Shown here: one piece after another, positions 44,219 to 57,697 of the stretch
How the letters are laid out: each line of letters starts with the position of its first letter
Numbering within the stretch: position 1 is the first letter of the stretch
Assembly (NCBI RefSeq): GCF_002278035.1
Contig: NZ_CP022605.1
Coordinates: 1 to 64,000 of the forward strand
DNA length: 64,000 nt
Direction: 5' to 3'
Origin: Ochrobactrum quorumnocens
Lineage (GTDB): Bacteria > Pseudomonadota > Alphaproteobacteria > Rhizobiales > Rhizobiaceae
Notes under the pieces: model-generated
The model's input: only the letters and a program-made list of their open reading frames with translations
Told to the model about the DNA's origin: nothing
The model's database searches: none
Position numbers and translations under genes: made by a program

Positions 44219-44950
44219 TTAGTGGGCGTTGCTTCTCAACCTTCGCTCAGCATAAACGAAGGCCGCATTGATAAGGATCGCAAGTGCTGCGACGATAAAG
44301 CCCCCCTGTAAAACGAAAGCCGTATTTCCCGATAACAGTCCTGCAACAATAACTTCACCCAGTGTACTTGCAGCGACGGTCGAGCCGATGGTTGCAGTGG
44401 AGAGCGAGATGATCGCGGCTAGACGAACGCCCGACAGGATGACCGGCAGAGCTAATGGCAGTTCGACATTAAACAGCAATTGTCGGCCGGTCATGCCCAT
44501 GCCACGTCCTGCATCAACCACGGATGGTTCAAGCTCGGTGAGACCTGTCAGCGTGTTTTCAAAGATCGGCAGCAAGCCATAAAGCAGAAGCGCGATGAAG
44601 GCAGGAATCGAGCCGAAGCCAAAGATCGGCACAGCGATGGCGAGAACTGCGACCGGCGGAAAAGTTTGGCCGATATTGGCCACTGCGCGCGAGATCGGCA
44701 GGAATTCACGTCCGCTAGGTCGCGTCGTTAAAATACCGAGCGTCACGGCGATGATGGTTGCAGTCAGTGTTGCGATGCCGACCAGCGCCAGATGGTTCAT
44801 GGTCAGTGCCAGCAGGGAGTTCTGCGTATAGATGGCCGGTGCATTATTGCGGGTGAAAGGTGCCAACCAGCTTTGAAACCATTCCGGCTTCAGAATGAAA
44901 GTACAAAGCAGGACCAGCAGTGCGATCTTCAGGACTGTGCCCAGTCTCAT
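44219..44950 (-). CDS. yehW: YehW-like betaine-type ABC transporter permease
   Basis: 243-residue permease of the OpuC/ProW class with about five or six helices and the EAA-type loop (VDAGRGMGMTGRQLLFNVELPLALP). Length and gene order (binding protein, long permease, ATPase, short permease) match yehZYXW of enterobacteria. Its start overlaps the ATPase stop by 4 bp. It probably pairs with the long permease to form the pore for a quaternary-amine substrate. Confidence 0.88.
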   Translation of the reverse strand: MRLGTVLKIALLVLLCTFILKPEWFQSWLAPFTRNNAPAIYTQNSLLALTMNHLALVGIATLTATIIAVTLGILTTRPSGREFLPISRAVANIGQTFPPVAVLAIAVPIFGFGSIPAFIALLLYGLLPIFENTLTGLTELEPSVVDAGRGMGMTGRQLLFNVELPLALPVILSGVRLAAIISLSTATIGSTVAASTLGEVIVAGLLSGNTAFVLQGGFIVAALAILINAAFVYAERRLRSNAH

Positions 44951-45885
44951 GCGACCCTCCGGGCGTGCTTTTCAATTGCAGCGCGGGTGATGCGGCCGAT
45001 GATCTGACCATCACGGCTGACAGGGAGTGCGGTGCGACCTGACCATAGGCTTGCGCCCAGTGCTTCACGCAGCGACATGTCACTGTTGATCGCATCACCA
45101 CTCGCGCCGCCGGTCTCGACGAGACCGTCAACGGTTTCAAGCGACAACAGACGGAATACGCGGTCACTGCCACCGCCGAGCAGGGCATGGACAAAGTCCG
45201 TTGCTGGTTTGGTGATGATTTCTTCCGGCGTTGCATATTGCAGCAACTTGCCCTTATCCATCACTGCAATACGCGAGCCAAGGCGGATCGCTTCTTCCAT
45301 ATCATGGGTAACAAGCACGATGGTGGTGCCATAATGTTTCTGGATCGCCAGCAGATCTTCCTGAGCTTTGTCGCGGATGATCGGGTCAAGCGCACCGAAT
45401 GGCTCATCCATCAGGAGGATTGCTGGATTGGATGCCAAAGCACGGGCAACGCCAATACGCTGTTGCTGACCGCCTGAAAGTTCATGCGGCATACGGTTGC
45501 GATAGATCGCAGGATCGAGGTGAAACAGTGATAGCAATTCATCCACACGCGTGGAGATTTTAGCCTTGTCCCAGCCGAGCAGCGTGGGGACTGTGCCGAT
45601 ATTTTCCGCAATGGTGCGGTGTGGAAACAGTCCATGGCCCTGAATGGCATAGCCGATGCCGCGTCGCAGAATATGAGGTGGTAGTTCTCGGTTGTCTTTG
45701 CCGTCGATCTTGATCACGCCATGGCTTGGTTCGACAAGGCGGTTAATCATGCGCATCAGCGTTGTCTTGCCGGAGCCAGACGTGCCAACGATGACGGCCA
45801 AATCACCCGCGTCGATTGTCAGCGAAACATTGTCGACGGCCGTTTGCGCGCCATAAATACGGGTGATGTTTGAAATCTCGATCAT
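44947..45885 (-). CDS. yehX: YehX-like betaine-type ABC transporter ATP-binding protein
   Basis: 312-residue ATPase of the OpuCA/ProV class. Walker A is VGTSGSGKTTLMRMI (about residues 34-48), the signature LSGGQQQRIGVARAL and Walker B ILLMDEPFGALDP. A C-terminal extension of about 80 residues includes a CBS-like module (DMSLREALGASLWSGRTALP, DGQIIGRITRAA), which in this class can sense ionic strength or nucleotides. It lies 11 bp after the long permease gene. Confidence 0.92.
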   Translation of the reverse strand: MIEISNITRIYGAQTAVDNVSLTIDAGDLAVIVGTSGSGKTTLMRMINRLVEPSHGVIKIDGKDNRELPPHILRRGIGYAIQGHGLFPHRTIAENIGTVPTLLGWDKAKISTRVDELLSLFHLDPAIYRNRMPHELSGGQQQRIGVARALASNPAILLMDEPFGALDPIIRDKAQEDLLAIQKHYGTTIVLVTHDMEEAIRLGSRIAVMDKGKLLQYATPEEIITKPATDFVHALLGGGSDRVFRLLSLETVDGLVETGGASGDAINSDMSLREALGASLWSGRTALPVSRDGQIIGRITRAAIEKHARRVA

Positions 45886-45896
45886 AGGACGGGCTC

Positions 45897-47084
45897 CTAA
45901 TTCTGGTGGCCGCGGCTGATTTCTATCAGCGCGTCAAGCAAGATGGCGGCGACGAAGGCCATGGCAACGGTCGGCAAAGCACCGAGCAACACCAGATCGG
46001 TGGCTGTCTGGGCGATGCCCTGAAAGACGAACATGCCAAGACCTCCGCCGCCCACAAGGCCGGCAATAACCGCAAGGCCGATATTCTGCACCAACACCAC
46101 GCGGATGCCGGTGAGGATTACGGGGAACGCCAACGGCAATTCCACTGAGAACAAGCGCTGGCGGCGGGTCATGCCCACACCGCGAGCGGCGTCCACAACG
46201 GAAGGCGAGACATTATCAAGGCCGGTAACGGTTGCTGAAACGATGGGCAGAAGTGCATAGGCGACGAGAGCGATGAAGGCTGGTGCTGGACCGATACCAG
46301 CGATGCCAAGTACTCTCGCACCGGGCAGATTGGCGCCAACCCATGCCAGCGGCGCAATCAGCACGCCGAACAGGGCCATGGATGGGATAGTCTGGATGAC
46401 ATTGAAGAAGGACAGAACAGCATCGCGCAGGCGCTTGACGCGGTGGATAAGTATGCCGATTGGCGTGGCGATGATGAAGGCTGCAATGAGGGAGCCGATC
46501 GCGAGAAAAGCGTGAGTGCTCAGTGCGCTCATGAACGCACCGCGACGAGAGGCATACTCCTTGAGAATGGAAATGTCGTTCCAGACGCCGCTATAGAGAA
46601 ACACGCCAAGAAGGACCACGAAGATACCTAGCGCTGCCAGCCGTGAAAGCGGCTTGAGACGCATGCGGACAAGCGTGTCACCAATGGCGAGTGCCAGCGC
46701 AAAGAGTATTAGCCACAGGCTGCCGCCGGGCGAAACACGGGCATAATTATTGCCTGCCGGTGTAAGGTAGGTCGCGCTCCAGCCAATAGCGATGGCGAGC
46801 GTAACAAGGGTGATTACCAGAAGGCCAAGACGCAATGTCAGCTGCGTGCGCAGCGCCATGACGAGGGCAGTGACCAACGACAGGACAATCAGTGCAAACG
46901 CCTGTAACGATGGTAAGGCATTCCAAATAAAGACTGGTGCAGTCGCCGCGACGCGATTGGGACGCACGAGGGCAAAAGGCTGGATGAACATCGCAGCAAT
47001 GATGATGAGGGAAATTACCAGCCCCAGTCGGTCAAAGGCAAAACGTGGGTGAGAGGCGGCGGTACGGTCTGCGGCTAATTGCAT
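45897..47084 (-). CDS. yehY: YehY-like betaine-type ABC transporter permease, long form
   Basis: 395-residue permease. The C-terminal half is the transport domain with the loop VDAARGVGMTRRQRLFSVELPLAFP, near-identical in pattern to that of the short permease. The N-terminal half adds four or five extra helices, as in YehY. With YehW it would make a heterodimeric channel. It follows the binding-protein gene after 121 bp containing a hairpin. Confidence 0.9.
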   Translation of the reverse strand: MQLAADRTAASHPRFAFDRLGLVISLIIIAAMFIQPFALVRPNRVAATAPVFIWNALPSLQAFALIVLSLVTALVMALRTQLTLRLGLLVITLVTLAIAIGWSATYLTPAGNNYARVSPGGSLWLILFALALAIGDTLVRMRLKPLSRLAALGIFVVLLGVFLYSGVWNDISILKEYASRRGAFMSALSTHAFLAIGSLIAAFIIATPIGILIHRVKRLRDAVLSFFNVIQTIPSMALFGVLIAPLAWVGANLPGARVLGIAGIGPAPAFIALVAYALLPIVSATVTGLDNVSPSVVDAARGVGMTRRQRLFSVELPLAFPVILTGIRVVLVQNIGLAVIAGLVGGGGLGMFVFQGIAQTATDLVLLGALPTVAMAFVAAILLDALIEISRGHQN

Positions 47085-47169
47085 GGTGAGTCCTGTTCGC
47101 CGGGAATTCTACTGGCTTTAGCGACGATTGCGCTTAGCATCGCTCGAGAACCAGCCTTAAGGATTGAGT

Positions 47170-47198
47170 CCCTGCCGAAGCAATTTATTCCGGCAGGG
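47170..47198 (-). terminator. Intra-operon hairpin after the YehZ-like gene
   Basis: A perfect 8-bp stem (CCCTGCCG / CGGCAGGG) with a 13-base loop starts 8 bp beyond the binding-protein stop. There is no T-run on the minus strand. It probably protects the binding-protein mRNA and lowers expression of the permease genes relative to it. Confidence 0.55.
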
Positions 47199-47205
47199 AA
47201 AAGGG

Positions 47206-48120
47206 TTACTTGATGAAGCCTTTGGAGGTTAAGTATTCGCGTGCAACATCAGCTGCAGGTTCGCCACCGACCTGGACGCGGCCATTGAGTTCCTGAAGAT
47301 TTTCGAGGGAAAAGGATTCAAACACTGGCTTTAGCAGTTCGGCTATTTGCGGATTTTCGTTCAGAACTGCTTCGCGAATAATGGGGGTGGGTAAATAAAC
47401 CGGCTGCACACCCTTGTCATCTTGCAATACGACGAGATCCGCAGGCGCAATACCGCCATCAGTACCGTAGACCATGGCCGCATTGGCGCCCGAAGTTTGC
47501 TGTGCAGCAGCAGCGATCGTAGCCGCAGTGTCACCCCCTGAAAGCGTAATCAGTTGATCAGGCTTGAAGGTAAAGCTGTATGCCGTCTGGAAAGCCGGTA
47601 AAGCTGTGGCCGAGCTTACAAATTCTGACGACGCCGCAAGTTTGATCTGCCCACCACCACTCACATATTTTCCGAAATCAGTCAGAGACTTGAGTTTGTT
47701 TTTTTCCGCGACATCGCGGCGCACAGCAATTGCCCAGGTATTGTTGGCATTAGCCGGCGTCAACCAAACAATCTTGTTGGCTTCATAATCCAGTTTCTTG
47801 GCTTCTTCATATCCCTCGCGCGCCTTGTTCCATAGAGGAAGATCGCCCTTATTGAAGAAGAAGGCAGCATTCCCGGTATATTCCGGGTAAATATCGATTT
47901 GACCTTGGGTAATTGCTTCACGCACGATTGGGGTTGCACCAAGCTGGATCTTGTCGACAACAGCAATATTGTTTGCCTTAAGAACCTGCGAAATGATGTT
48001 GCCCAGCACCCCGCCCTCGGTATCGATCTTGGAACCCACCACAACATCTGCTGCGAAAGCAAAGCTGGTAGCAGTTACCAGGCTGGCCACTACGCCAGCA
48101 ATAATCAATGATGTTTTCAT
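47206..48120 (-). CDS. yehZ: YehZ/OsmF-like substrate-binding protein for a quaternary amine
   Basis: 304-residue periplasmic receptor of the OpuAC/OsmF type (MKTSLIIAG start with signal peptide ending SFAFAA). Segments DVVVGSKIDTEGGVLGNIIS, REAITQGQIDIYPEYTGNA and LAASSEFVSSATALPAF follow the family pattern. AGGGAG lies upstream of the ATG. The family binds betaines, choline or related trimethylammonium compounds; ergothioneine receptors of Gram-positive bacteria belong to the same wider group. The adjacent catabolic operon suggests the ligand may be ergothioneine or a relative. Confidence 0.88.
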   Translation of the reverse strand: MKTSLIIAGVVASLVTATSFAFAADVVVGSKIDTEGGVLGNIISQVLKANNIAVVDKIQLGATPIVREAITQGQIDIYPEYTGNAAFFFNKGDLPLWNKAREGYEEAKKLDYEANKIVWLTPANANNTWAIAVRRDVAEKNKLKSLTDFGKYVSGGGQIKLAASSEFVSSATALPAFQTAYSFTFKPDQLITLSGGDTAATIAAAAQQTSGANAAMVYGTDGGIAPADLVVLQDDKGVQPVYLPTPIIREAVLNENPQIAELLKPVFESFSLENLQELNGRVQVGGEPAADVAREYLTSKGFIK

Positions 48121-48289
48121 AGTTGTGTTCTCCCTCACAGTCATCTGCTGTTTGATTTGCAGGCTAGTTTAAAACACCGGAAAGGGATATATCCCAGATT
48201 CCGAACGAAGGATGCCTCAGCAAAATTCTGTCATCCCGGTGGTGTTTTATAAGCGTCATAAACTAGTCGTCGCGAGAAATAAAATTCTA

Positions 48290-49456
48290 CTAATTGTCCT
48301 CTGTCAGTAGTGACACCATCTCATTTAACATCGTTGGTGTGAAAGTGTTCCGTCGCCATACAAATGAAAGTATCTGGCGGTGTTCTTGACCAAGCAGGTA
48401 TTGCGTAATCGGGAAGGGAAGACGGGCAACAACTGGTTCGGGCAATATCGAAAGATAACCGTGTCGCGTGACCAGATTAATGATGACCGGAATTGAATCC
48501 ATCTCGATTAAACGAAGTTTTGATGGACTTACCGGACCAAGCACGCTTTCCAAATAGAGCATCGCATGTTGTCGGATACCGCTCTTCGCACTGGGAAGTG
48601 CCAGGCGATGCTTTTGCAAGAACGTTGCCATGTCGCCATTGAGTTCCGCCATGACACGATGATCACCAATCAGGGCGAGCGGGGCATCTGATACGACGCG
48701 GCCATCAAAATCCCGGGAGAAGTCGTCGTGGTCGATGAGGATCGCATCATAGCGGCGGCTTTTGAGCCCAGAGATCAGTTCTTCTGCGGTGTTGGCCGAA
48801 ATCGATAGCGGTTGGCGCGGATAGAGCTTTTCCCATCCGGCTGTCAGATTGGCAAGGATCTGCGCAATATTGCTTTCATGGCCAAGCGGCATAACAGACC
48901 CGACCCGACAGGTCGCGAGCTTGTATCGGAAGCGATCAGACGATGCATGAGACAGCTCCTCCCAATTGCTTATAATTGTTTCCACAAGAGTGAGCATTTG
49001 CTTACCGGCTTCGGTGCAACTGACACCAGATCGTGTCCGCTCAAATAAGCGGCAATCAAGGTTACGCTCCAGTTCCGATAGCTGACGAGTCAGCTGTGGC
49101 TGCCCCATGCCGAGGCTTTTGGCTGCGGCACGGATACTGCCCGCCTGGGCTGCAACAGAAAAGCGAATGAGAGCGGTGAGAGAGATGGCTGCACGATTAT
49201 TGTTGGTGCCGCCGATAGATTGAAGCTCGCGACTGAGCTGCGCTGTTTCATTAAATACTCTGCGGCGCTTTTGTGCCTCGAGTGTAAGGCTTAGAACTGC
49301 TCCCTCTCGCCGCATGAGTGGTACCGCGAGCGCCGTTTCCATTCGATCCAGGGCCGCGCTGACCGTGGACGGAGCGCGACCTTCCAGACGTGCGGTTTCG
49401 CGGATGGAGCAAGTTGCAATCAGCGAATTGATGATCAGAATAGTGGCAATGTCCAT
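48290..49456 (-). CDS. LysR-family regulator with two helix-turn-helix domains
   Basis: 388 residues from the ATG at 49456 (MDIATILIINS). Two LysR-like DNA-binding domains are visible in tandem. The first (residues 1-80: IATCSIRETARLEGRAPSTV, ALDRMETALAVPLMRR) is degenerate. The second (about 90-150: LIRFSVAAQAGSIRAAAKSL, PQLTRQLSELERNLDCRLFE) is standard. A C-terminal effector-binding domain follows. LysR proteins are normally about 300 residues with one such domain. It is divergent from the lyase-headed operon and co-directional with the importer, so it is the likely regulator of both. Confidence 0.85.
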   Translation of the reverse strand: MDIATILIINSLIATCSIRETARLEGRAPSTVSAALDRMETALAVPLMRREGAVLSLTLEAQKRRRVFNETAQLSRELQSIGGTNNNRAAISLTALIRFSVAAQAGSIRAAAKSLGMGQPQLTRQLSELERNLDCRLFERTRSGVSCTEAGKQMLTLVETIISNWEELSHASSDRFRYKLATCRVGSVMPLGHESNIAQILANLTAGWEKLYPRQPLSISANTAEELISGLKSRRYDAILIDHDDFSRDFDGRVVSDAPLALIGDHRVMAELNGDMATFLQKHRLALPSAKSGIRQHAMLYLESVLGPVSPSKLRLIEMDSIPVIINLVTRHGYLSILPEPVVARLPFPITQYLLGQEHRQILSFVWRRNTFTPTMLNEMVSLLTEDN

Positions 49457-49557
49457 TAATATACCCCGATCTACACTACATTCGCGCCGCATGTGATGTG
49501 CTTGCAGAATAATAAGCCTCAAGTTGTCGATGGCCTATCGCATAGATTCATATTGCT

Positions 49558-49575
49558 TGCATCATGACTTATGCA
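49558..49575. promoter_or_regulatory. LysR-type operator candidate in the divergent promoter
   Basis: TGCAT and ATGCA form inverted arms separated by 8 bases, in the 320-bp gap between the tandem-HTH LysR gene and the lyase operon. The spacing fits the T-N11-A rule for LysR sites. Binding by the adjacent regulator is inferred from position. Confidence 0.45.
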
Positions 49576-49776
49576 GGTCTTTATAATTCTCGAAGGCCAA
49601 TTCAGCGAGATCGGCAATGTTGCTCTAAGTCGCGACCTGAAACATATCATCCAGTATTCACGGCGCATACTCCTCCAAAATTCCCACATCGCGCGTTCGC
49701 AATATGGGATATCCCTTGTGATCTCTCTGTCAGGTAAACTCATCCCGACAGCCTAATCTTGAAGGTATCGAACACA

Positions 49777-51369
49777 GTGCAGATCGTTTTGAACGGGCAG
49801 CCGCTTGGCTTTGCCGATATGATGAAAATCGGGAATGGGGAAGTGGAAGTTGCTGCTTCTGCGGAGGGCATGGAGCGGGTCAAAGCCTCGCGCGAAGTGC
49901 TGGAAGAGGCAATCCGCAACGGTGTGCCCGTGTATGGCAGCACGACCGGTGTCGGTGCGATGAAAGATGTGAGCTGGTCTGATGATGAGCTCGAAGAGTT
50001 CAATATGGGGCTGGTGCGCGCGCATCATTTCGGTACCGGTGCTGCTTTCCCGCCGTCAATCGTGCGTAAAGCTATTGCAATCCGCATCAATACAATCCTG
50101 ACCGGTCAGGTTGGTTGCACTACGGGTCTGGTTGATGCCTATCTCGATCTGATGCGTGCCGATGTTATTCCTGTCGTGCGTCGCACTGGCTCGATTGGTT
50201 GCGCCGACATTGGCCTGATGGGGCAGATTGGCGCTGTGCTAACCGGTGTTGGCGAGGCGATGTATCAAGGCAAGCGCATGCCTGCCAGTGAAGCGCTGAA
50301 ACAGGCAGGGCTAAAGCCGCACCGTATGGCACCGCGAGATGCACTGGCTTCGCTTTCGGCCAATGCCGTGAGCTTTGCTGCCGCTGCCCGCGCCCTGCGT
50401 GATGCCGCTTCAGTCATCCGCGTTATGCTTGCAACAAGCCTCACGGCTTCTGGTGCGCTTGGCGCATCACCTGATCCGTGGCTTGCGGCATGTCATGTGG
50501 GCACGCCGCGCGAAGCACTGGTTGGAAAATGGTACTGTGATGCGGCAGCGTCATGGCAATGGCCGGTATCGACCCATGTGCAGGACCCGCTGAGCCTTCG
50601 CATGGTAGCGCAGGTTTTTGGTACGATTATAGAGAGCCTGCTTGGTGCCGGTTACAAGATTTTGCAAGCAACCGGACGCTCTGATGACAATCCGGTTGTG
50701 GTTGAAGGCCGTGTCGTGACTTCGGGCGGATCATTACCACTTGATGTGACAGTGTTGCTTGAATCCGTCTCCGTCTGTATGGCGCATGCAGCGCGTAATG
50801 CATTCAATCGCTGCGTGCTGTTGGGTAATGGGCATCGCCGTGGTCTACCACTCAATCTCGTGCCGGACGGTAAGATCGCAACCGGATTTGGCCCGATCAT
50901 AAAGCTCGCAGGTGAAATTTTCTCCCGCGTGCTTTCGCTCAGTAGTCCAGTGTCTGCGCAGTCGCTGGTTGTTGCTGGTGGGATGGAAGATGAAGCCGCG
51001 TTCCTGCCATTGGTGATTGAACGTTTTGAACGTCAGGTGGAGGCGCTGAAGCGTCTCGCCGCTTTGGAAGCGCTGCTGGCATCGCAGGCCATAGATATTG
51101 TGGGTGATGAGCCGCAGGGTGTGGCGGGCCTGATCTATGAACAGGTGCGCAAATGCTCGCCATTCTATGAGAAAGATCGACCGCTTTCTGCTGAGGTGGA
51201 ATGCATCGAAGAGTTGATATGTTCGGATGCGATTGTGGCACAGATCATCGACCGCGCGCCGATCAACAGTTTCGATAGTTTCTTCGCTTTGGGTACAGCC
51301 CCCGAAGGCACGCCGGAAGCAACACGCGCGAAAGTCGTGGTTGCCGCCCCCGCTTTTAAAGAAAACTGA
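49777..51369 (+). CDS. MIO-less histidine-ammonia-lyase homologue, putative ergothionase
   Basis: 530 residues from a GTG at 49777; an in-frame TTG lies six codons earlier. The fold is that of the aromatic amino acid ammonia-lyases: VYGSTTGVG with Y53, RTGSIG at 138-141, VQDPLSLR with Q269 and R275, and SDDNPVV. However, the Ala-Ser-Gly that cyclises to the MIO electrophile is replaced by Cys142-Ala143-Asp144. This should abolish normal ammonia elimination from histidine. From memory, ergothionase, which eliminates trimethylamine from ergothioneine, is a related lyase that works without MIO. With the downstream hydratase, desulfurase and hydantoinase this is the best functional guess. Confidence 0.8.
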   Translation: MQIVLNGQPLGFADMMKIGNGEVEVAASAEGMERVKASREVLEEAIRNGVPVYGSTTGVGAMKDVSWSDDELEEFNMGLVRAHHFGTGAAFPPSIVRKAIAIRINTILTGQVGCTTGLVDAYLDLMRADVIPVVRRTGSIGCADIGLMGQIGAVLTGVGEAMYQGKRMPASEALKQAGLKPHRMAPRDALASLSANAVSFAAAARALRDAASVIRVMLATSLTASGALGASPDPWLAACHVGTPREALVGKWYCDAAASWQWPVSTHVQDPLSLRMVAQVFGTIIESLLGAGYKILQATGRSDDNPVVVEGRVVTSGGSLPLDVTVLLESVSVCMAHAARNAFNRCVLLGNGHRRGLPLNLVPDGKIATGFGPIIKLAGEIFSRVLSLSSPVSAQSLVVAGGMEDEAAFLPLVIERFERQVEALKRLAALEALLASQAIDIVGDEPQGVAGLIYEQVRKCSPFYEKDRPLSAEVECIEELICSDAIVAQIIDRAPINSFDSFFALGTAPEGTPEATRAKVVVAAPAFKEN

Positions 51370-51416
51370 CTTAAAACACGCTGAGTCAAAAAAGTTGATT
51401 GGGCAGGAGAATTGAT

Positions 51417-52796
51417 ATGGCCGATTTCGATCTGGTTTTACAGGGAGCCGTTGTGCTGCCTGATCGCGTGGTGGAGCGCGGTTATGTGGCCGTGCGTGAT
51501 GGCAAAATCATCCAGCTAGGCACCGGAACGCCGCCTGAAGCCAAAGAGCGTCATCTGTTGGGCGAGGCGCTGATCATGCCGGGTGCAATTGACGCGCAGG
51601 TACATTCGCTCTCGCAGAAAAATCAGGAAGATTTCATCTGGTCAACTCGTACCGCGGCTGCCGGTGGTGTCACGACGATTGTTGATATGCCTTATGATGA
51701 GGGCGATCTAATCTGTTCGGCAGCGGCCGTGGAACGCAAAATCGCCCATGCCGGAAAACAGGCTTTTGTCGATTTCGCGCTCTATGGCACGATTGACCCG
51801 CTTGAAGGTGCCAAACGTATTGCCGAACAGGCGGAAGCCGGTGTGGCAGCGTTTAAATTCTCGACCTTTGGCACTGATCCCAAGCGCTTTCCGCGTATCA
51901 ATCCGCCGCTTTTGGCAGAGTGCTTTGCGGAAGTGGCCAAAACCGGTCTGACCGCCGGCGTGCACAATGAGAATGACGAATATGTGCAGTCGGCGATGAA
52001 GAAGGTGAAAGAAGCGGGCATTACCGATTATCGTGCGCATGGCATGTCGCGTCCACCGCTGACCGAACTTCTCGCCATGACCGAGATTTATGAGATAGGT
52101 GCTGCAATCGGCTGTCCGGCGCATGTCGTGCATTGCTCGCTTGGTCGCGGTTATGAAATCGCCGCATCTTACCGTGCGCAGGGGTATCAGGCGACGGTCG
52201 AATGCCTAATCCACTATCTGATGCTGGATGATGAAAATGACGCCAAGCGTCTTGGCGGTCGTTCCAAGTGCAACCCGCCGCTGCGCCCGCGTGCGGAAGT
52301 CGAAAAGCTCTGGCGTGAACTGGCCAATGGCAATGTAACGCTGCTCTCGACCGACCATGTGAGCTGGTCGCTTGATCGCAAAACCAATCCGGACATGTTG
52401 GCCAATGCATCAGGCCTGCCGGGCTTGGAAACGCTCATCCCGCTATTCGTGAAGGGTGCGATGGAACGCGGCGTGTCGCTGTCATGGGGTGCCAAACTGA
52501 TGGCAGAGAACCCTGCCAGGCATTTCCGCCTTGATCATATCAAGGGCGCTCTGACGCCGGATCGCGATGCTGATATCACGATCCTGACACCTGAAACATA
52601 TATCTACGATGCGGCCTCAACGGGAAATAATGTTGCTGGATGGTCACCTTTCGACGGGATAGAGCTGCCCTATAAAGTGGCGGCAACCTATGTGCGCGGG
52701 CAAAAGGTCTATGACGGCAAGAACGTGATAGCGGAGGCTGGCTTTGGCCATTTCGTTCGCCCGCCACTGCGCCATATCATTGCAGGACATGCATAA
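51417..52796 (+). CDS. Hydantoinase/dihydroorotase-like amidohydrolase
   Basis: 459-residue metal-dependent hydrolase opening a cyclic amide such as hydantoin-5-propionate. ALIMPGAIDAQVH (the usual HxH is QVH at 61-63, as in some dihydroorotases), the bridging lysine in VAAFKFSTFG, VHNENDEY, AHVVHCSLG and LLSTDHVSW fit the cyclic amidohydrolase fold. AGGAGA precedes the ATG at 51417. Its stop overlaps the start of the next gene by one base (TAATG). In the proposed pathway it makes N-carbamoyl-glutamate. Confidence 0.85.
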   Translation: MADFDLVLQGAVVLPDRVVERGYVAVRDGKIIQLGTGTPPEAKERHLLGEALIMPGAIDAQVHSLSQKNQEDFIWSTRTAAAGGVTTIVDMPYDEGDLICSAAAVERKIAHAGKQAFVDFALYGTIDPLEGAKRIAEQAEAGVAAFKFSTFGTDPKRFPRINPPLLAECFAEVAKTGLTAGVHNENDEYVQSAMKKVKEAGITDYRAHGMSRPPLTELLAMTEIYEIGAAIGCPAHVVHCSLGRGYEIAASYRAQGYQATVECLIHYLMLDDENDAKRLGGRSKCNPPLRPRAEVEKLWRELANGNVTLLSTDHVSWSLDRKTNPDMLANASGLPGLETLIPLFVKGAMERGVSLSWGAKLMAENPARHFRLDHIKGALTPDRDADITILTPETYIYDAASTGNNVAGWSPFDGIELPYKVAATYVRGQKVYDGKNVIAEAGFGHFVRPPLRHIIAGHA

Positions 52797-54043
52797 TGAG
52801 CACCAATCTGCCGGTTCGGGCGATACGCATCGCGGAAGATCTCGACGCGTTGGCCGCCATTACCGAGCCGGGTCGCCCGTGGACACGGCGCGTGTTCTCG
52901 CCGCTTTATCTCGAAGGCCGTGCTTACTTGCAAAAGCGCATGCAGGCGGCGGGTCTTGAAACCCGTATTGATGCTGCCGGAAATCTGATCGGCTTTCGCA
53001 AAGGTAAAAGTGTCGGCAAAGGCGTGATCATGCTCGGATCGCATTCCGATACGGTGCCGGAAGGCGGGCGTTTTGACGGCATCGCTGGTGTTGTCACCGC
53101 GCTGGAAGTGACGCGTGCGCTAAGCGATCATAGCATTGAACTTGATCATGATCTTGAAGTGGTTGATTTTCTGGCAGAGGAAGTAAGCCCGTTTGGGGTT
53201 TCCTGCATTGGCAGTCGCGGCATGACAGGCCAGTTGCCAAAGGAATGGCTGGATCGGGTCAGCGATGGGCGCACGCTTTATACAGCTTTTGGTGAGGTTG
53301 GTGGCGATGCAGGCACTGTTCTAAGCCAGAGCCGTCCTGATCTTGCAGCCTTTATGGAGCTGCATATCGAGCAGGGGCCGGTGCTGGAAGCCGAGCATAA
53401 AGATATCGGCATTGTCACTGCCATTGCCGGTATCAGCCGGTTTGAAATCATCATCGAAGGCCGTGCAGATCATGCAGGCACCACACCGATGGGACAGCGT
53501 GCCGATGCGCTTGTCGCGGCTTCAAAACTGGTGCTGGAGATTAACGAAAAGGCCTTTGAACTTTCGGCTACGCCGGGGCATTTCACGGCAACAGTCGGTG
53601 AGTTCCGCATCGAGCCAAATGCTGCCAATGTGGTGCCTTCACTGGTGCGGCTGCTGATCGATGCACGCGCGGAATATCGCGATGATATGCTCAATTTTGC
53701 TGCATGGCTCGATGGTGCGTGCATCAAATGTGCTGAGACCGATGGTGTGGCAATTGCTGGCGTTAATCGCGTTTCGGATAACAATCCGGCGCCAAGCGAT
53801 GCAACTGTGCTGACACATCTGGAGCAGGCATGTGAGAAGGTTGGTGCCACGCATCGGCGTTTGGCATCCGGTGCGGGGCACGATGCGGCATGGCTCTCGA
53901 AAGTCACGCCGACGGCGATGATTTTTGTGCCGAGCAAAGGCGGGCGCAGCCATACGCCCGAAGAATGGACCGAAAACAGCGAAATCACCTTAGGCGCAGC
54001 CGTGCTTTATGAAGCGGTGCTGACGCTCGACAAGACATTATAG
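52796..54043 (+). CDS. M20-family N-carbamoyl-amino acid hydrolase
   Basis: 415-residue zinc hydrolase of the HyuC/allantoate amidohydrolase/beta-ureidopropionase group. Visible are MLGSHSDTVPEGGRFDGIAGV with metal ligands, FLAEEVSPFG, FMELHIEQGPVLE, GRADHAGTTPMGQRADAL and SGAGHDAAWLS. It removes the carbamoyl group, giving an amino acid, CO2 and ammonia. It is translationally coupled to the hydantoinase by the TAATG junction; the pair is the classic hydantoin-to-amino acid module, here with a likely glutamate product. Confidence 0.88.
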   Translation: MSTNLPVRAIRIAEDLDALAAITEPGRPWTRRVFSPLYLEGRAYLQKRMQAAGLETRIDAAGNLIGFRKGKSVGKGVIMLGSHSDTVPEGGRFDGIAGVVTALEVTRALSDHSIELDHDLEVVDFLAEEVSPFGVSCIGSRGMTGQLPKEWLDRVSDGRTLYTAFGEVGGDAGTVLSQSRPDLAAFMELHIEQGPVLEAEHKDIGIVTAIAGISRFEIIIEGRADHAGTTPMGQRADALVAASKLVLEINEKAFELSATPGHFTATVGEFRIEPNAANVVPSLVRLLIDARAEYRDDMLNFAAWLDGACIKCAETDGVAIAGVNRVSDNNPAPSDATVLTHLEQACEKVGATHRRLASGAGHDAAWLSKVTPTAMIFVPSKGGRSHTPEEWTENSEITLGAAVLYEAVLTLDKTL

Positions 54044-54047
54044 AATT

Positions 54048-54147
54048 AGAGCGCATCCCGAAAAGTGTGAAGCGGTTTTCGGATAAGATGCGTAAAACTA
54101 AAAAAACTAGAACGCAGATCTGATGCAATCAGATCGAAACGCGCTCT
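54048..54147. repeat. Intergenic palindromic repeat (Rhizobiales/Brucella type)
   Basis: About 100 bp bounded by AGAGCGC and GCGCTCT. Internally it contains ATCCCGAAAAGTG-like and GGTTTTCGGAT segments that pair with each other, and a second small inverted repeat (GATCTGAT/ATCAGATC). This layout and sequence resemble the RIME/Bru-RS mosaic palindromes scattered between genes in Rhizobiales. It lies inside the catabolic operon, between the carbamoylase and DUF917 genes, and may fold in the mRNA. Confidence 0.65.
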
Positions 54148-54172
54148 AGAACGAACAGGCAGGAGAAGCTGA

Positions 54173-55267
54173 ATGGGACGCATACTCGTTGAGAAAGACG
54201 TCGAAGCCGCGGTCAAGGGCGGCTCCGTTTACGCGGCTGGCGGTGGTGGCTGGGCAGATCATGGCCGCATGTTGGGTTACGCGGCGGTGAGTATCGGCAA
54301 GCCGGAACTGGTTTCGATTGATGAACTTGATGACAATGACTGGATTGCTACGGCTGCGGCCATTGGTGCACCGGCTTCGACCACACCGTGGGAAATGCAG
54401 GGCGTTGATTACGTCAAGGCTGTCGATTTGCTGCAAAAAGAACTGGGCGAGCCGCTGAAAGGTTTGATCATCGGGCAGAACGGTAAGTCCTCGACACTCA
54501 ACGGGTGGTTGCCTTCGGCCGTTCTCGGTACCAAAGTTGTCGATGCCGTGGGCGATATCCGCGCTCATCCGACTGGTGATATGGGTTCCATCGGTATGGC
54601 CGGTTCGCCTGAACAGATGATCCAGACCGCTGTTGGCGGTAATCGCTCTGAAAACCGCTATATCGAGTTGGTGGTGAAAGGTGCAACGGCGAAAGTCTCG
54701 CCAATTCTGCGTGCGGCTTCTGATCAGTCGGGCGGCTTTATCGCTTCTTGCCGTAATCCGCTGCGCGCATCTTATGTGCGAACTCATGCGGCTCTTGGCG
54801 GCGTCTCGATGGCTCTGAGCCTTGGCGACGCGATTATCGCTGCTGAAGCCAAGAGCGGTCATGCGGTGATTGATGCTATCTGCAAGAACACCGGCGGTCA
54901 TATTCTGGCGGAAGGTGTAATCACGGAAAAGAACGTCGTCTACACCAAAGAAGCATTCGATATTGGCACCGTGAAGGTTGGTAGCGGCGATAAGGCCGTG
55001 ACGCTTCATGTGATGAACGAATATATGGCGGTGGATGACAAGGACGGCCAGCGTGTCGCAACTTTCCCATCGGTCATCACTACGCTTTCCGAGGACGGTC
55101 ATGCGCTCAGCGTTGGTGAACTGCGCCAGGGCATGAAGATTTTCATTCTGCATGTGCCGATGAACATCATCCCGCTTTCAGCCAGTGTATTGGATGCGGC
55201 GGTCTACCCTTCGGTTGAGAAAGCCATGGGCATTGAAATTGCGAAATATGTGCAGGGAGTGAAGTAA
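54173..55267 (+). CDS. DUF917-family protein, putative thiohydantoin desulfurase
   Basis: 364-residue protein of the former DUF917 family. Segments VYAAGGGGWADHGRMLGY, IDELDDNDWIATAAAIGAP, and the acidic/Asn-rich loop near GQNGKSS are typical. The family often lies next to hydantoinases, and from memory it has been linked to S-methyl-thiohydantoin desulfuration. In this operon it is the one enzyme positioned to remove sulfur from the thiohydantoin produced by the hydratase, giving hydantoin-5-propionate. AGGAG precedes the ATG. It is 2 bp from the urocanase-like gene. Confidence 0.82.
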   Translation: MGRILVEKDVEAAVKGGSVYAAGGGGWADHGRMLGYAAVSIGKPELVSIDELDDNDWIATAAAIGAPASTTPWEMQGVDYVKAVDLLQKELGEPLKGLIIGQNGKSSTLNGWLPSAVLGTKVVDAVGDIRAHPTGDMGSIGMAGSPEQMIQTAVGGNRSENRYIELVVKGATAKVSPILRAASDQSGGFIASCRNPLRASYVRTHAALGGVSMALSLGDAIIAAEAKSGHAVIDAICKNTGGHILAEGVITEKNVVYTKEAFDIGTVKVGSGDKAVTLHVMNEYMAVDDKDGQRVATFPSVITTLSEDGHALSVGELRQGMKIFILHVPMNIIPLSASVLDAAVYPSVEKAMGIEIAKYVQGVK

Positions 55268-55269
55268 TC

Positions 55270-56931
55270 ATGCCAAAGGCAAATCCACGTCACCCGAATT
55301 TTCCCATACCGGGCGGTTCGGAACTTCGTGCCAAGGGCTGGCGGCAGGAAGCACTGCTGCGCCTGCTCGAAAACGTGCTTTCGGTCGGTGAAGACCCTGA
55401 AAACCTGATTGTCTATGCAGCACTTGGCAAGGCTGCGCGCAGCTGGCCTGCGCATGGTGCCATCGTCAAGACGCTCTTGGAAATGGATGAGAACCAGACA
55501 TTGCTCATCCAGTCGGGCAAGCCGGTTGGTCTGATGAAAACCCACGCCAAGGCGCCGCTCGTCATCATGGCGAATTGCAATATTGTCGGGCAGTGGGCGA
55601 AGGCTGAGTATTTCTATGATTTGCAGCGCAAGGGGCTGATCTGCTGGGGCGGTCTGACCGCTGGTGCATGGCAATATATCGGCAGTCAGGGCGTTATTCA
55701 GGGCACTTATGAAATCTTCATGCGCATTGCTCAGAAACGTTTCGACGGTGATCTGGCCGGACGTTTTATCCTTACCGCCGGCCTTGGCGGCATGGGTGGC
55801 GCACAGCCGCTGGCTGGTCGTATGGCTGGTGCGGCGATCCTCTGCGTTGATATCGATCCTGAACGCGCCCGCATGCGCAAGGAAATAGGCTATTTGCAGG
55901 AAATAGCCCCTGATCTTGATACGGCACTCGCCATGATCGATCAGGCGGTGAAGGAAAAACGGGCTCTGTCCGTTGGTCTTGTTGGCAATGCCGCAGAAAT
56001 CTATCCGGAAATCGCCCGTCGCGGTATCGTGCCGGATATTGTCACCGATCAGACCTCGGCGCATGATCTCGTCTATGGTTATGTGCCTAAGGGCATGAGC
56101 CTTGGTCAGGTTAAGGGCTTGCGCGAAGACGGCCAAGGCCAGTTGATGGCGGCCAGCCGCGCGTCAATCGTCGAGCACGTGACGGCGATGTTGGATTTCC
56201 AGAAAAAGGGTTCAGAAGTGTTTGACAACGGCAACCTGATCCGCACGCAGGCGCGGGAAGGCGGCGTCGAAAATGCGTTCGATATTCCGATCTTCACGGA
56301 AGCATACTTACGTCCGCTGTTTGCCCGCGCGATTGGCCCATTCCGTTGGATGGCAACGTCCGGTGAAGAAAGCGACATTGCCAAGATTGATGATGTGTTG
56401 CTGGAAATGTTTGCCGACAATCACATTGTCACCAACTGGATTAAGCTTGCGCGTGAGTATGTGCCATTTGAGGGCCTGCCAGCACGCATTGCATGGCTTG
56501 GTCATGGTGAACGCACGGCGCTGGCGCTTCGCGTCAATGAAATGGTGGCATCTGGCGAACTCAAAGGCCCTGTTGCCTTCTCGCGCGACCATCTTGATGC
56601 AGGAGCCATGGCGCATCCCAACATCATGACCGAAGGCATGAAGGATGGTTCTGACGCCATTGCTGATTGGCCGCTGATCGACGCGATGATGCTCTGCGCA
56701 TCGATGGCCGATCTCGTCGTCGTGCATTCCGGCGGCGGCGGTTATGCCGGTTACATGACCAGTGCTGGTGTAACAGTGGTAGCTGATGGTACGCCGGAAG
56801 GCGCGGAGCGTCTTGAGCACTCGCTGACCAATGATACGGCGCTTGGTGTCATTCGTTATGCCGATGCAGGCTACGAAGAGTCTTTTGACGAAATCGCCAA
56901 GAAGAACGTGCCTTATATTCCGCTTGTCTAA
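55270..56931 (+). CDS. Urocanase homologue, putative thiourocanate hydratase
   Basis: 553-residue NAD-dependent hydratase of the urocanase (HutU) family. It has LMKTHAKAPLVIMANCNIVG, GLTAGAWQYIGSQGVIQGTY, NAD-binding GLGGMGGAQP (171-180), SVGLVGNAAE, TDQTSAHD (259-266) and a GGGGYAG-type segment near the C-terminus. True urocanases belong to a hut operon with a MIO-containing HutH; neither is here. Its neighbours fit hydration of thiourocanate or its S-methyl form. It is the last gene of the operon, and its stop is one base from the stop of the convergent Crp-type regulator. Confidence 0.85.
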   Translation: MPKANPRHPNFPIPGGSELRAKGWRQEALLRLLENVLSVGEDPENLIVYAALGKAARSWPAHGAIVKTLLEMDENQTLLIQSGKPVGLMKTHAKAPLVIMANCNIVGQWAKAEYFYDLQRKGLICWGGLTAGAWQYIGSQGVIQGTYEIFMRIAQKRFDGDLAGRFILTAGLGGMGGAQPLAGRMAGAAILCVDIDPERARMRKEIGYLQEIAPDLDTALAMIDQAVKEKRALSVGLVGNAAEIYPEIARRGIVPDIVTDQTSAHDLVYGYVPKGMSLGQVKGLREDGQGQLMAASRASIVEHVTAMLDFQKKGSEVFDNGNLIRTQAREGGVENAFDIPIFTEAYLRPLFARAIGPFRWMATSGEESDIAKIDDVLLEMFADNHIVTNWIKLAREYVPFEGLPARIAWLGHGERTALALRVNEMVASGELKGPVAFSRDHLDAGAMAHPNIMTEGMKDGSDAIADWPLIDAMMLCASMADLVVVHSGGGGYAGYMTSAGVTVVADGTPEGAERLEHSLTNDTALGVIRYADAGYEESFDEIAKKNVPYIPLV

Positions 56932-56932
56932 G

Positions 56933-57697
56933 CTATCGGTTCGTGCGGAAACGGGGAAAAATCTCCATTGAGAGATAGTCTTCATCGAAACTGGAGATAT
57001 GAACCAGAGCGGCACGGTTGAGAAATTCAACCGTGTTGTTTCGAAATGTCAGTAAATCGTCACTTCGCAATTCGCGTAACATCCGATTGATATGTATCGG
57101 CGTAAGTCCGAGTGCATCGCCAAGTTCTGATTGAGTAAGGGGACAGAAGAAACGGTCCTCATTTCCTGTTCCGTTCAATCGTGCGCGATGACCAAGCTCT
57201 AACAATAGATGGGCCACGCGTACGAGGGCGCTGCGCCGTCCGATGCTGATAATATGTTCCACAAGGATTGCGCGTTGTCTCGCCATCAATTCCATGAAGG
57301 TCATGGCAAGGCGGGGGGATTTTGACAGACATTCTGTGAGATGATCCAGAGAAAGCTCGAAGACCGAAAGTTCAGTGACCGAGATCAGAGTATAATAATT
57401 AAATCCGATTCCGGTTCTGAAGCCGAGAAAGTCACCCTTCATCGGAAAGTCGAGGATCTGCCGGTCGCCGTCAGCGAGATCGCGGTAGATGCAGCCCCAC
57501 CCCCCTTTAATGATATGGAGAGAATTAGCCCAATCACCTTGACTGCTGACAACAGTATGAGGCGCGTAAGTTTTGACGGACACTGGAAGTGAACTGATGA
57601 TGCCGAAATCGCTCTCTTCAAAGACCGCACCGATTGGGGGGCTTTCGAGGAAATGGCGAAATGTTTTTGCGTCGTCAGTGCTGACCGCCATTGGCAC
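56933..57697 (-). CDS. Crp/Fnr-family transcriptional regulator
   Basis: 254-residue regulator with an N-terminal cyclic-nucleotide-like beta-roll (about 40-150, GGWGCIYRDLADGDRQILDFP, GDFLGFRTG) and a C-terminal winged helix-turn-helix (LTQSELGDALGLTPIHINRML). The N-terminal Cys cluster of true Fnr proteins is absent. This subtype, common in Rhizobiales, lacks the Fnr iron-sulfur site. Its gene converges on the catabolic operon with a one-base gap, so antisense overlap of transcripts is likely. Whether it controls that operon is unknown. Confidence 0.88.
   Translation of the reverse strand: MPMAVSTDDAKTFRHFLESPPIGAVFEESDFGIISSLPVSVKTYAPHTVVSSQGDWANSLHIIKGGWGCIYRDLADGDRQILDFPMKGDFLGFRTGIGFNYYTLISVTELSVFELSLDHLTECLSKSPRLAMTFMELMARQRAILVEHIISIGRRSALVRVAHLLLELGHRARLNGTGNEDRFFCPLTQSELGDALGLTPIHINRMLRELRSDDLLTFRNNTVEFLNRAALVHISSFDEDYLSMEIFPRFRTNR

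Follow-up and report, generated by a model that had tools for sequence, protein, structure and literature searches.

The window analysed here comprises the first 64 kb of the 1.03-Mb contig C4 of Ochrobactrum quorumnocens, whose genome of 5.65 Mb is in four contigs, and between positions 44219 and 56931 it carries a putative system for the uptake and breakdown of ergothioneine (Table 1). An earlier note on this DNA had read the region as encoding a quaternary-amine importer, a regulator and five catabolic enzymes. All ten reading frames are open, and family profile scans returned the families that it had named. The importer and regulator genes lie on the minus strand, and the five enzyme genes, hereafter the ert operon, on the plus strand.

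Table 1. Genes and predicted operators of the putative ergothioneine locus in the window
Feature	Position	Strand	Basis or remark
ABC importer permease, YehW/YehY type	44219..44950	-	BPD_transp_1; other genera have it with binding protein and ATPase within or next to ert
ABC importer ATPase (ProV/YehX-like)	44947..45885	-	ABC_tran; best NCBIfam model TIGR01186 proV, 285.5 bits, below cut-off 326.6
ABC importer permease, larger subunit	45897..47084	-	BPD_transp_1
Periplasmic binding protein, OsmF/YehZ type, proposed ergothioneine binder	47206..48144	-	NF049931 OsmF, 495 bits, cut-off 400
Predicted operator before importer, CATCCTTCGTTCGGAATCTGGGATATATC	48186..48214	-	Exact match to CATN5GTTCN6TGGGATAT; two mismatches against the first, longer pattern
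Tandem-HTH LysR regulator, 388 aa, proposed name ErtR	48290..49456	-	Two HTH_1 and LysR_substrate
Predicted operator before catabolic operon, CATCGCGCGTTCGCAATATGGGATATCCC	49687..49715	+	Pattern and matrix scans
Putative ergothionase (ergothioneine trimethylamine-lyase), MIO-less	49759..51369	+	Aromatic-lyase family; TTG start uncertain
ErtD, hydantoin-5-propionate amidohydrolase	51417..52796	+	NF058538, 775 bits, cut-off 600
ErtE, N-carbamyl-L-glutamate amidohydrolase (M20)	52796..54043	+	NF058540, 597 bits, cut-off 520
Thiohydantoin desulfurase (DUF917, now S-Me-THD-like)	54173..55267	+	NF058529, 597 bits, cut-off 440
Thiourocanate hydratase (urocanase family)	55270..56931	+	NF058530, 1049 bits, cut-off 930

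Ergothioneine is a fungal antioxidant that some bacteria also produce and that plants and animals retain. From the gene content, family membership, residues, conservation and operator-like sites observed in the sequence, we read the locus, with a probability of about 0.8, as a self-contained ergothioneine utilisation regulon made up of an importer, five enzymes and a LysR regulator with two operators. In this model, the YehZYXW-type ATP-binding cassette (ABC) importer would take in ergothioneine, and an ergothionase would strip trimethylamine from it to leave thiourocanate, which thiourocanate hydratase would convert to thiohydantoin propionate. Thiohydantoin desulfurase would then release sulfide to give hydantoin propionate, ErtD would open the hydantoin ring to give N-carbamyl-glutamate, and ErtE would release CO2 and ammonia, ending in L-glutamate. 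The LysR protein, with two N-terminal helix-turn-helix (HTH) domains, would sense ergothioneine or an early product and would bind two operators, one upstream of the catabolic operon and the other upstream of the importer. It is the substrate of the importer, the binding of DNA, the inducer and the sense of control (activation or repression) that we infer.

The chemistry assigned to each step is that of the five-step bacterial catabolism of ergothioneine ending in glutamate, which Beliaeva, Leisinger and Seebeck reportedly reconstituted in 2021; the enzymes of the pathway are known in vitro. The five enzymes of the window fit the reaction order of that pathway, as the earlier note had proposed: four of the five (steps 2-5) exceed the cut-offs of the NCBI equivalog models made for it, and the enzyme of step 1 carries ergothionase-type residues. 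ErtE also exceeded the cut-off of the generic model NF009531 (703 against 486). The hydratase is 67% identical to PDB 7ned, an entry titled urocanate hydratase that we take to be a solved thiourocanate hydratase, and 53% identical to the urocanase 1x87. These profile matches strongly support ergothioneine as the probable catabolic substrate. Because the pathway is already published, the catabolic part of the locus is a further instance of it and not novel.

The lyase, as had been predicted, lacks the Ala-Ser-Gly triad that forms methylidene-imidazolone (MIO): in the alignment it has GSIGCA-D where MIO lyases have GSVGASGD, and its model takes a fold of the histidine ammonia-lyase (HAL) type, with a mean predicted local distance difference test (pLDDT) value of 77.7. 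Ergothionase residues were looked for by alignment with the enzyme of Treponema denticola (PDB 6s7j), which is said to have been treated by Maurer in 2019, and the two proteins share K, D, N, L, S, D, H, K and E at corresponding positions; a lack of such residues, which the earlier note had named as refuting its reading, was thus not observed. Lyase K382 aligns with T. denticola K383 (by the count of this analysis), and E410 aligns with E411; T. denticola K384 and E411 are presumably among the catalytic residues of ergothionase. The same enzyme was, narrowly, the closest fold to the lyase model. Alignment and model together support the prediction that this product is an ergothionase acting as a trimethylamine-lyase on ergothioneine.

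A genome scan with the lyase confirmed 187 loci, 80 of which were returned. The same five enzymes in the same order were found in 69 of them, so that the comparison of gene neighbourhoods bears out a gene set that is more than chance. One further locus (L022) ends at a contig end within ErtD, and in the remaining 10 none of the other four enzymes is near the lyase. Thiourocanate hydratase over cut-off occurred in 4 of 35 same-genus genomes (that of the window included), in 33 of 247 sampled genomes of the family and in 6 of 398 sampled genomes of the phylum. The same locus is present in G007, of the same genus, and ert genes are also borne by plasmids of Paracoccus, Thalassospira, Burkholderia and Neorhizobium. 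In the Rhizobium-group loci that were read, the lyase adjoins genes that the annotator reads as ubiB-like and ubiE-like.

Two HTH_1 stretches were detected in the window LysR protein and in all 10 relatives scanned. The regulator model (mean pLDDT 86.6) repeats the order helix-helix-helix-strand-strand-helix, which is that of a winged HTH, at residues 25-103 and 115-198; both the profiles and the model are therefore in agreement with the tandem-HTH architecture claimed earlier. The 50 structure matches listed cover about 196-410 or 109-410 of the model, and not 23-105. With a profile built from 29 relatives (E <= 1e-60), 26 hits were obtained in 25 of the 247 family genomes, 22 of them beside ert genes (in G388 only ErtD, ErtE and a lyase-like gene adjoin, and in G616 the hydratase is on another contig). 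Three of the others (G310, G165 and G102) adjoin a YehZYXW importer, and one, a second copy in G550, adjoins UbiD and aromatic-lyase genes. The regulator is present in 24 of 33 ert-positive genomes and in 1 of 214 ert-negative ones, and its relatives adjoin ErtD on plasmids of Paracoccus, Thalassospira and Neorhizobium. No ergothioneine regulator or tandem-HTH LysR protein was evident among the literature titles obtained, a partial set that is weak evidence of novelty; as far as searched, the regulator, the operator and the link of regulator, importer and catabolism are not described.

The same operator-like site lies in the regulator-lyase gap of the window, in the regulator-importer gap of Rhizobium and upstream of the Rhizobium ert operon. 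A strict pattern, YATN5GTTCN9GATATSCC, gave 19 matches in 16 of the 247 genomes and none in the backwards control. The ert-positive genomes contributed 12 of these matches (9 genomes of 33), all at ert or importer promoters, and the ert-negative genomes seven, one each in 7 of 214. The pattern CATN5GTTCN6TGGGATAT, refined after inspection of the two sites of the window and scanned in 16 genomes, occurs exactly twice in the 5.65-Mb genome, once ahead of the lyase and once ahead of the importer (chance expectation in the window, 0.01); allowing one mismatch added no third site there. The same pair was found in G007 and G008, and in G020 together with two one-mismatch sites; G602, G252, G533, G310 and G102 each have a single one-mismatch match away from known sites, and a single match, in G008, came from the backwards control. 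In G010, a same-genus genome where no hydratase passed the cut-off, one exact match (G010:C2:118072-118097) and two one-mismatch matches were seen.

A weight matrix, trained on most of the sites that it scored (L108, L119, L121, L129 and the Rhizobium loci L109-L111 were left out), gave at least 14 in each of 25 ert loci in which the regulator was found and in none of the seven regulator-less loci, L132-L138. The Paracoccus and Thalassospira loci scored 14.8 to 26.5. A site of at least 20 precedes the lyase in 67 of the 80 loci (66 of the 70 with the operon and 1 of the 10 with the lyase only), and their 1.69 Mb hold just one more such site, at the importer of L013 (Brucella rhizosphaerae PR17); reversed DNA of the 80 loci gave none. 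Before the lyase, 68 of the 70 operon loci have the operator core without a mismatch and all 70 have it with at most one; nowhere else in their 1.48 Mb does the exact core recur. Since close relatedness among many of these genomes makes the counts non-independent, the occurrence of the site in separate genera and at two kinds of promoter carries more weight than the totals.

The importer is tied to the ert genes in two ways. Of the 37 ert loci fetched, 6 have the four YehZYXW-like genes within the ert operon or next to it, namely those of three same-genus genomes, of G040 (from another family), of G602 and of G533. In G040 the order is regulator, divergent lyase, binding protein, permease, ATPase, permease, ErtD, ErtE, desulfurase and hydratase; the importer is thus embedded between lyase and ErtD, as it also is in G533, and in G602 it lies between lyase and desulfurase. 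The second line of evidence comes from a check for split loci that covered 26 of the 80 lyase loci: 16 with the operon (14 titled Rhizobium and two "Rhizobiales bacterium") and all 10 with the lyase only. In each of the 16, the ert operon lies elsewhere and the regulator stands divergent from the importer at a second locus, with the operator core exact at the importer; Rhizobium johnstonii 3841 (L067/G684) has this arrangement. Counting all Rhizobium-type genomes checked in which the ert operon lies elsewhere, the regulator adjoins a YehZYXW importer in 19 of 19. The shared operator-like sites and these split loci strengthen the case that importer and regulator are both linked to ergothioneine, which we infer from gene neighbourhood and promoter sequence.

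An OsmF-type binding protein was found in 9 of the 10 lyase-only genomes and an importer-type regulator in none of the 10 at E <= 1e-60, with a Rhizobium-type query that probably misses distant types. We make no claim that these genomes lack the pathway, because that threshold is probably too strict and because at least one of them, Rhizobium/Aliirhizobium CC-CFT758, has plasmid matches to the missing enzymes. In this strain the lyase stands alone on the chromosome (L083) and the other four enzymes are on a plasmid (L243), where the desulfurase matched in several pieces and an amino-acid-type ABC importer adjoins; its ergothioneine pathway seems to be split between the two replicons. Operator-like sites were seen before the lone lyase in L027, L032, L058, L079 and L086, none with an importer-type regulator at the same threshold.

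Several observations weigh against a single regulon of this kind. Identity between the lyase and the T. denticola enzyme is only 27%, no NCBIfam ergothionase model matched the lyase, its lead in fold over HALs is about one Z unit, and active-site loops are of low confidence (60-71, 146-148 and 399-412, all with pLDDT below 50). The regulator was not found at E <= 1e-60 in 9 of the 33 ert-positive genomes, and in G533, which has importer and ert genes, neither regulator nor site was found. Conversely, the Neorhizobium locus L244 has the regulator and no site of at least 11, the variant loci L172 and L173 have it and no site of at least 14, and 5 of the 10 lyase-only loci hold a site-like sequence (two exact, three with one mismatch). 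On a matrix derived from ert sites of other genera, the ert promoters of Rhizobium reach 13.9 to 37.2 and its importer sites only -8.6 to 6.0, so that what the latter have in common with the ert sites is chiefly the GTTC and GATATCCC blocks. The importer itself is absent from the stretch covered in 31 of the 37 ert loci. Its binding protein has a pocket much the same as that of OsmF proteins unlinked to ert, lacks the G244 and F293 determinants of the ergothioneine-binding EgtU, and has S in place of R379. The ert-linked binding proteins do not form one clean clade either, the tree needing two changes, with one origin possible.

The last of these points bear on the strongest alternative, in which the operon serves ergothioneine and by chance has as its neighbour an ordinary osmoprotectant importer for glycine betaine or choline. 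NCBIfam names the binding protein OsmF, its pocket residues equal those of unlinked OsmF, and most ert loci do without such genes in the stretch covered. Against it, the importer is preceded by its own copy of the predicted operator, of which the genome has just two; the importer is embedded within the ert operon in three genomes; the regulator-importer unit recurs in all 16 split-locus genomes; and none of 11 unlinked OsmF loci has the exact core site, two of them holding one-mismatch sites away from the binding-protein gene. We therefore regard a merely adjoining osmoprotectant importer as unlikely.

The pocket was compared with that of EgtU, for which PMC9732360 gives E375 as the contact to an imidazole nitrogen and G244 and a Y-to-F switch at 293 as determinants. 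The window protein, whose nearest structures were 5teu, 5uve and 4nd9, keeps the equivalents of K242, I243, T275, N339, E375, Y419 and Y443, and has D for G244, A for T274, Y for F293, N for T296, W for Y341, S for R379 and T for D381; with those seven positions not kept, its identification as EgtU was rejected. A pocket change specific for ergothioneine was rejected as well, since ert-linked and unlinked proteins share the pocket motifs, E375 included. Substitutions beside the pocket (PANANNTW, EFVSSAT and VYLPTP) mark the window group and partly G602, and are absent from G040 and G533. Because the unlinked OsmF pockets are nearly the same, linkage to ert would mean either a recruited betaine importer or a capacity for ergothioneine throughout the family. 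The latter, in which YehZYXW/OsmF proteins import ergothioneine generally and not only in ert regulons, is suggested by three residues contacting the carboxylate or imidazole in EgtU (K242, T275 and E375), which are kept in ert-linked and unlinked members, and by Escherichia coli OsmF/YehZ (PDB 4wep), which keeps the R379, D381 and E375 equivalents, unlike the Rhizobiaceae proteins compared. We hold this view as tentative and rather improbable; if it is true, an ergothioneine importer would have gone unrecognised in E. coli and many other bacteria.

As for the catabolic substrate, a lyase of the ergothionase kind may accept both ergothioneine and its sulfonate, for which a bacterial route was reportedly described by Yan in 2022. 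PMC13405746 lists Agrobacterium radiobacter among ergothionase bearers and cites the study by Yan for it. The operon keeps a thiohydantoin desulfurase, however, which would not be expected in the sulfonate route, and we consider ergothioneine sulfonate as the true substrate very improbable.

Ergothioneine and S-methyl-ergothioneine had both been named in the earlier note, and of the two the first stands and the second is disfavoured. The enzyme families would be the same, and the DUF917 Pfam domains are named for S-methyl-thiohydantoin desulfurase. Nevertheless, the hydratase reached 735 bits with the S-methyl model NF058531 (cut-off 880) and the desulfurase 279 bits with NF058532 (cut-off 450), and because both pass the ergothioneine cut-offs and fail these, degradation of S-methyl-ergothioneine appears more improbable still. 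Finally, a duplicated set of histidine utilisation (hut) genes can be set aside. In its favour, the hydratase also passes the generic hutU cut-off (684 against 375 bits), and in deposited records such hydratases appear as urocanate hydratase or hutU, while related lyases appear as histidine ammonia-lyase. Against it, the MIO triad is missing from the lyase, the thiourocanate model lies far above hutU (1049 against 684 bits), a desulfurase has no role in hut, and a separate MIO-bearing lyase and urocanase-family gene, which we take to be hutH and hutU, stand side by side on contig C3 of the same genome. In several public records the ert genes bear the names urocanate hydratase or allantoinase.

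Regarding the gene boundaries, relatives point to the ATG at 49456 as the probable start of the LysR protein, within a frame spanning 48290-49522; ErtD probably begins at the ATG at 51417 rather than at the TTG that opens its frame at 51399, and the binding protein probably at the ATG at 48120 rather than at 48144. A Crp/Fnr-type regulator gene at 56933-57697 converges on the hydratase gene and is probably outside the ert set, because it was present only in the three same-genus loci among the 37 fetched. Scans for sigma-70 promoters (10 sites, shuffle mean 9.8), terminator-like sites (18, shuffle mean 14.0) and folding of the operator-region DNA (z = -1.29) were set aside. Elsewhere, UbiD-family decarboxylases occur near ert genes or the tandem-HTH LysR gene, after the hydratase in L240 (annotated) and L132 (Pfam UbiD) and beside the regulator in L172 and L173 (Pfam UbiD). 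UbiX-like flavoproteins are present in L132 and L137, and TRAP transporters in L240 and, by our reading, in L132 and L137. These settings are either ert loci in which no lyase like that of the window was found, or a tandem-HTH LysR gene with a distant aromatic lyase, and they possibly represent a branch in which an intermediate of the pathway is decarboxylated or taken up.

Compared with the known five-step catabolism of ergothioneine, the window locus has the same five enzymes, reaction order and end product, glutamate. What it adds is an importer linked to these genes and a conserved, probable regulator with its predicted operator. Independent evidence of several kinds connects the three with the ert enzymes, so that induction and uptake can be put to a direct test. 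The lyase shares with T. denticola ergothionase, its top structural match, a MIO-less HAL fold, and differs from it, beyond the 27% identity, in having C-A-D rather than E-G-D at the former MIO site and E412 in place of H413. Like other LysR-type regulators, the regulator has HTH_1 and LysR_substrate domains, with residues 109-410 of its model aligning with LysR proteins over their full length, OxyR and BenM among them, and it differs in bearing a second HTH_1 in front. The binding protein has the quaternary-amine binding fold of the EgtU importer, in which, unlike here, it is fused to the permease. With the YehZYXW/OsmF osmoprotectant importer, the window set shares the same genes (an OsmF-type binding protein over cut-off, two permeases and an ATPase), and it is distinguished by its ties to the ergothioneine genes and to their operator-like site.

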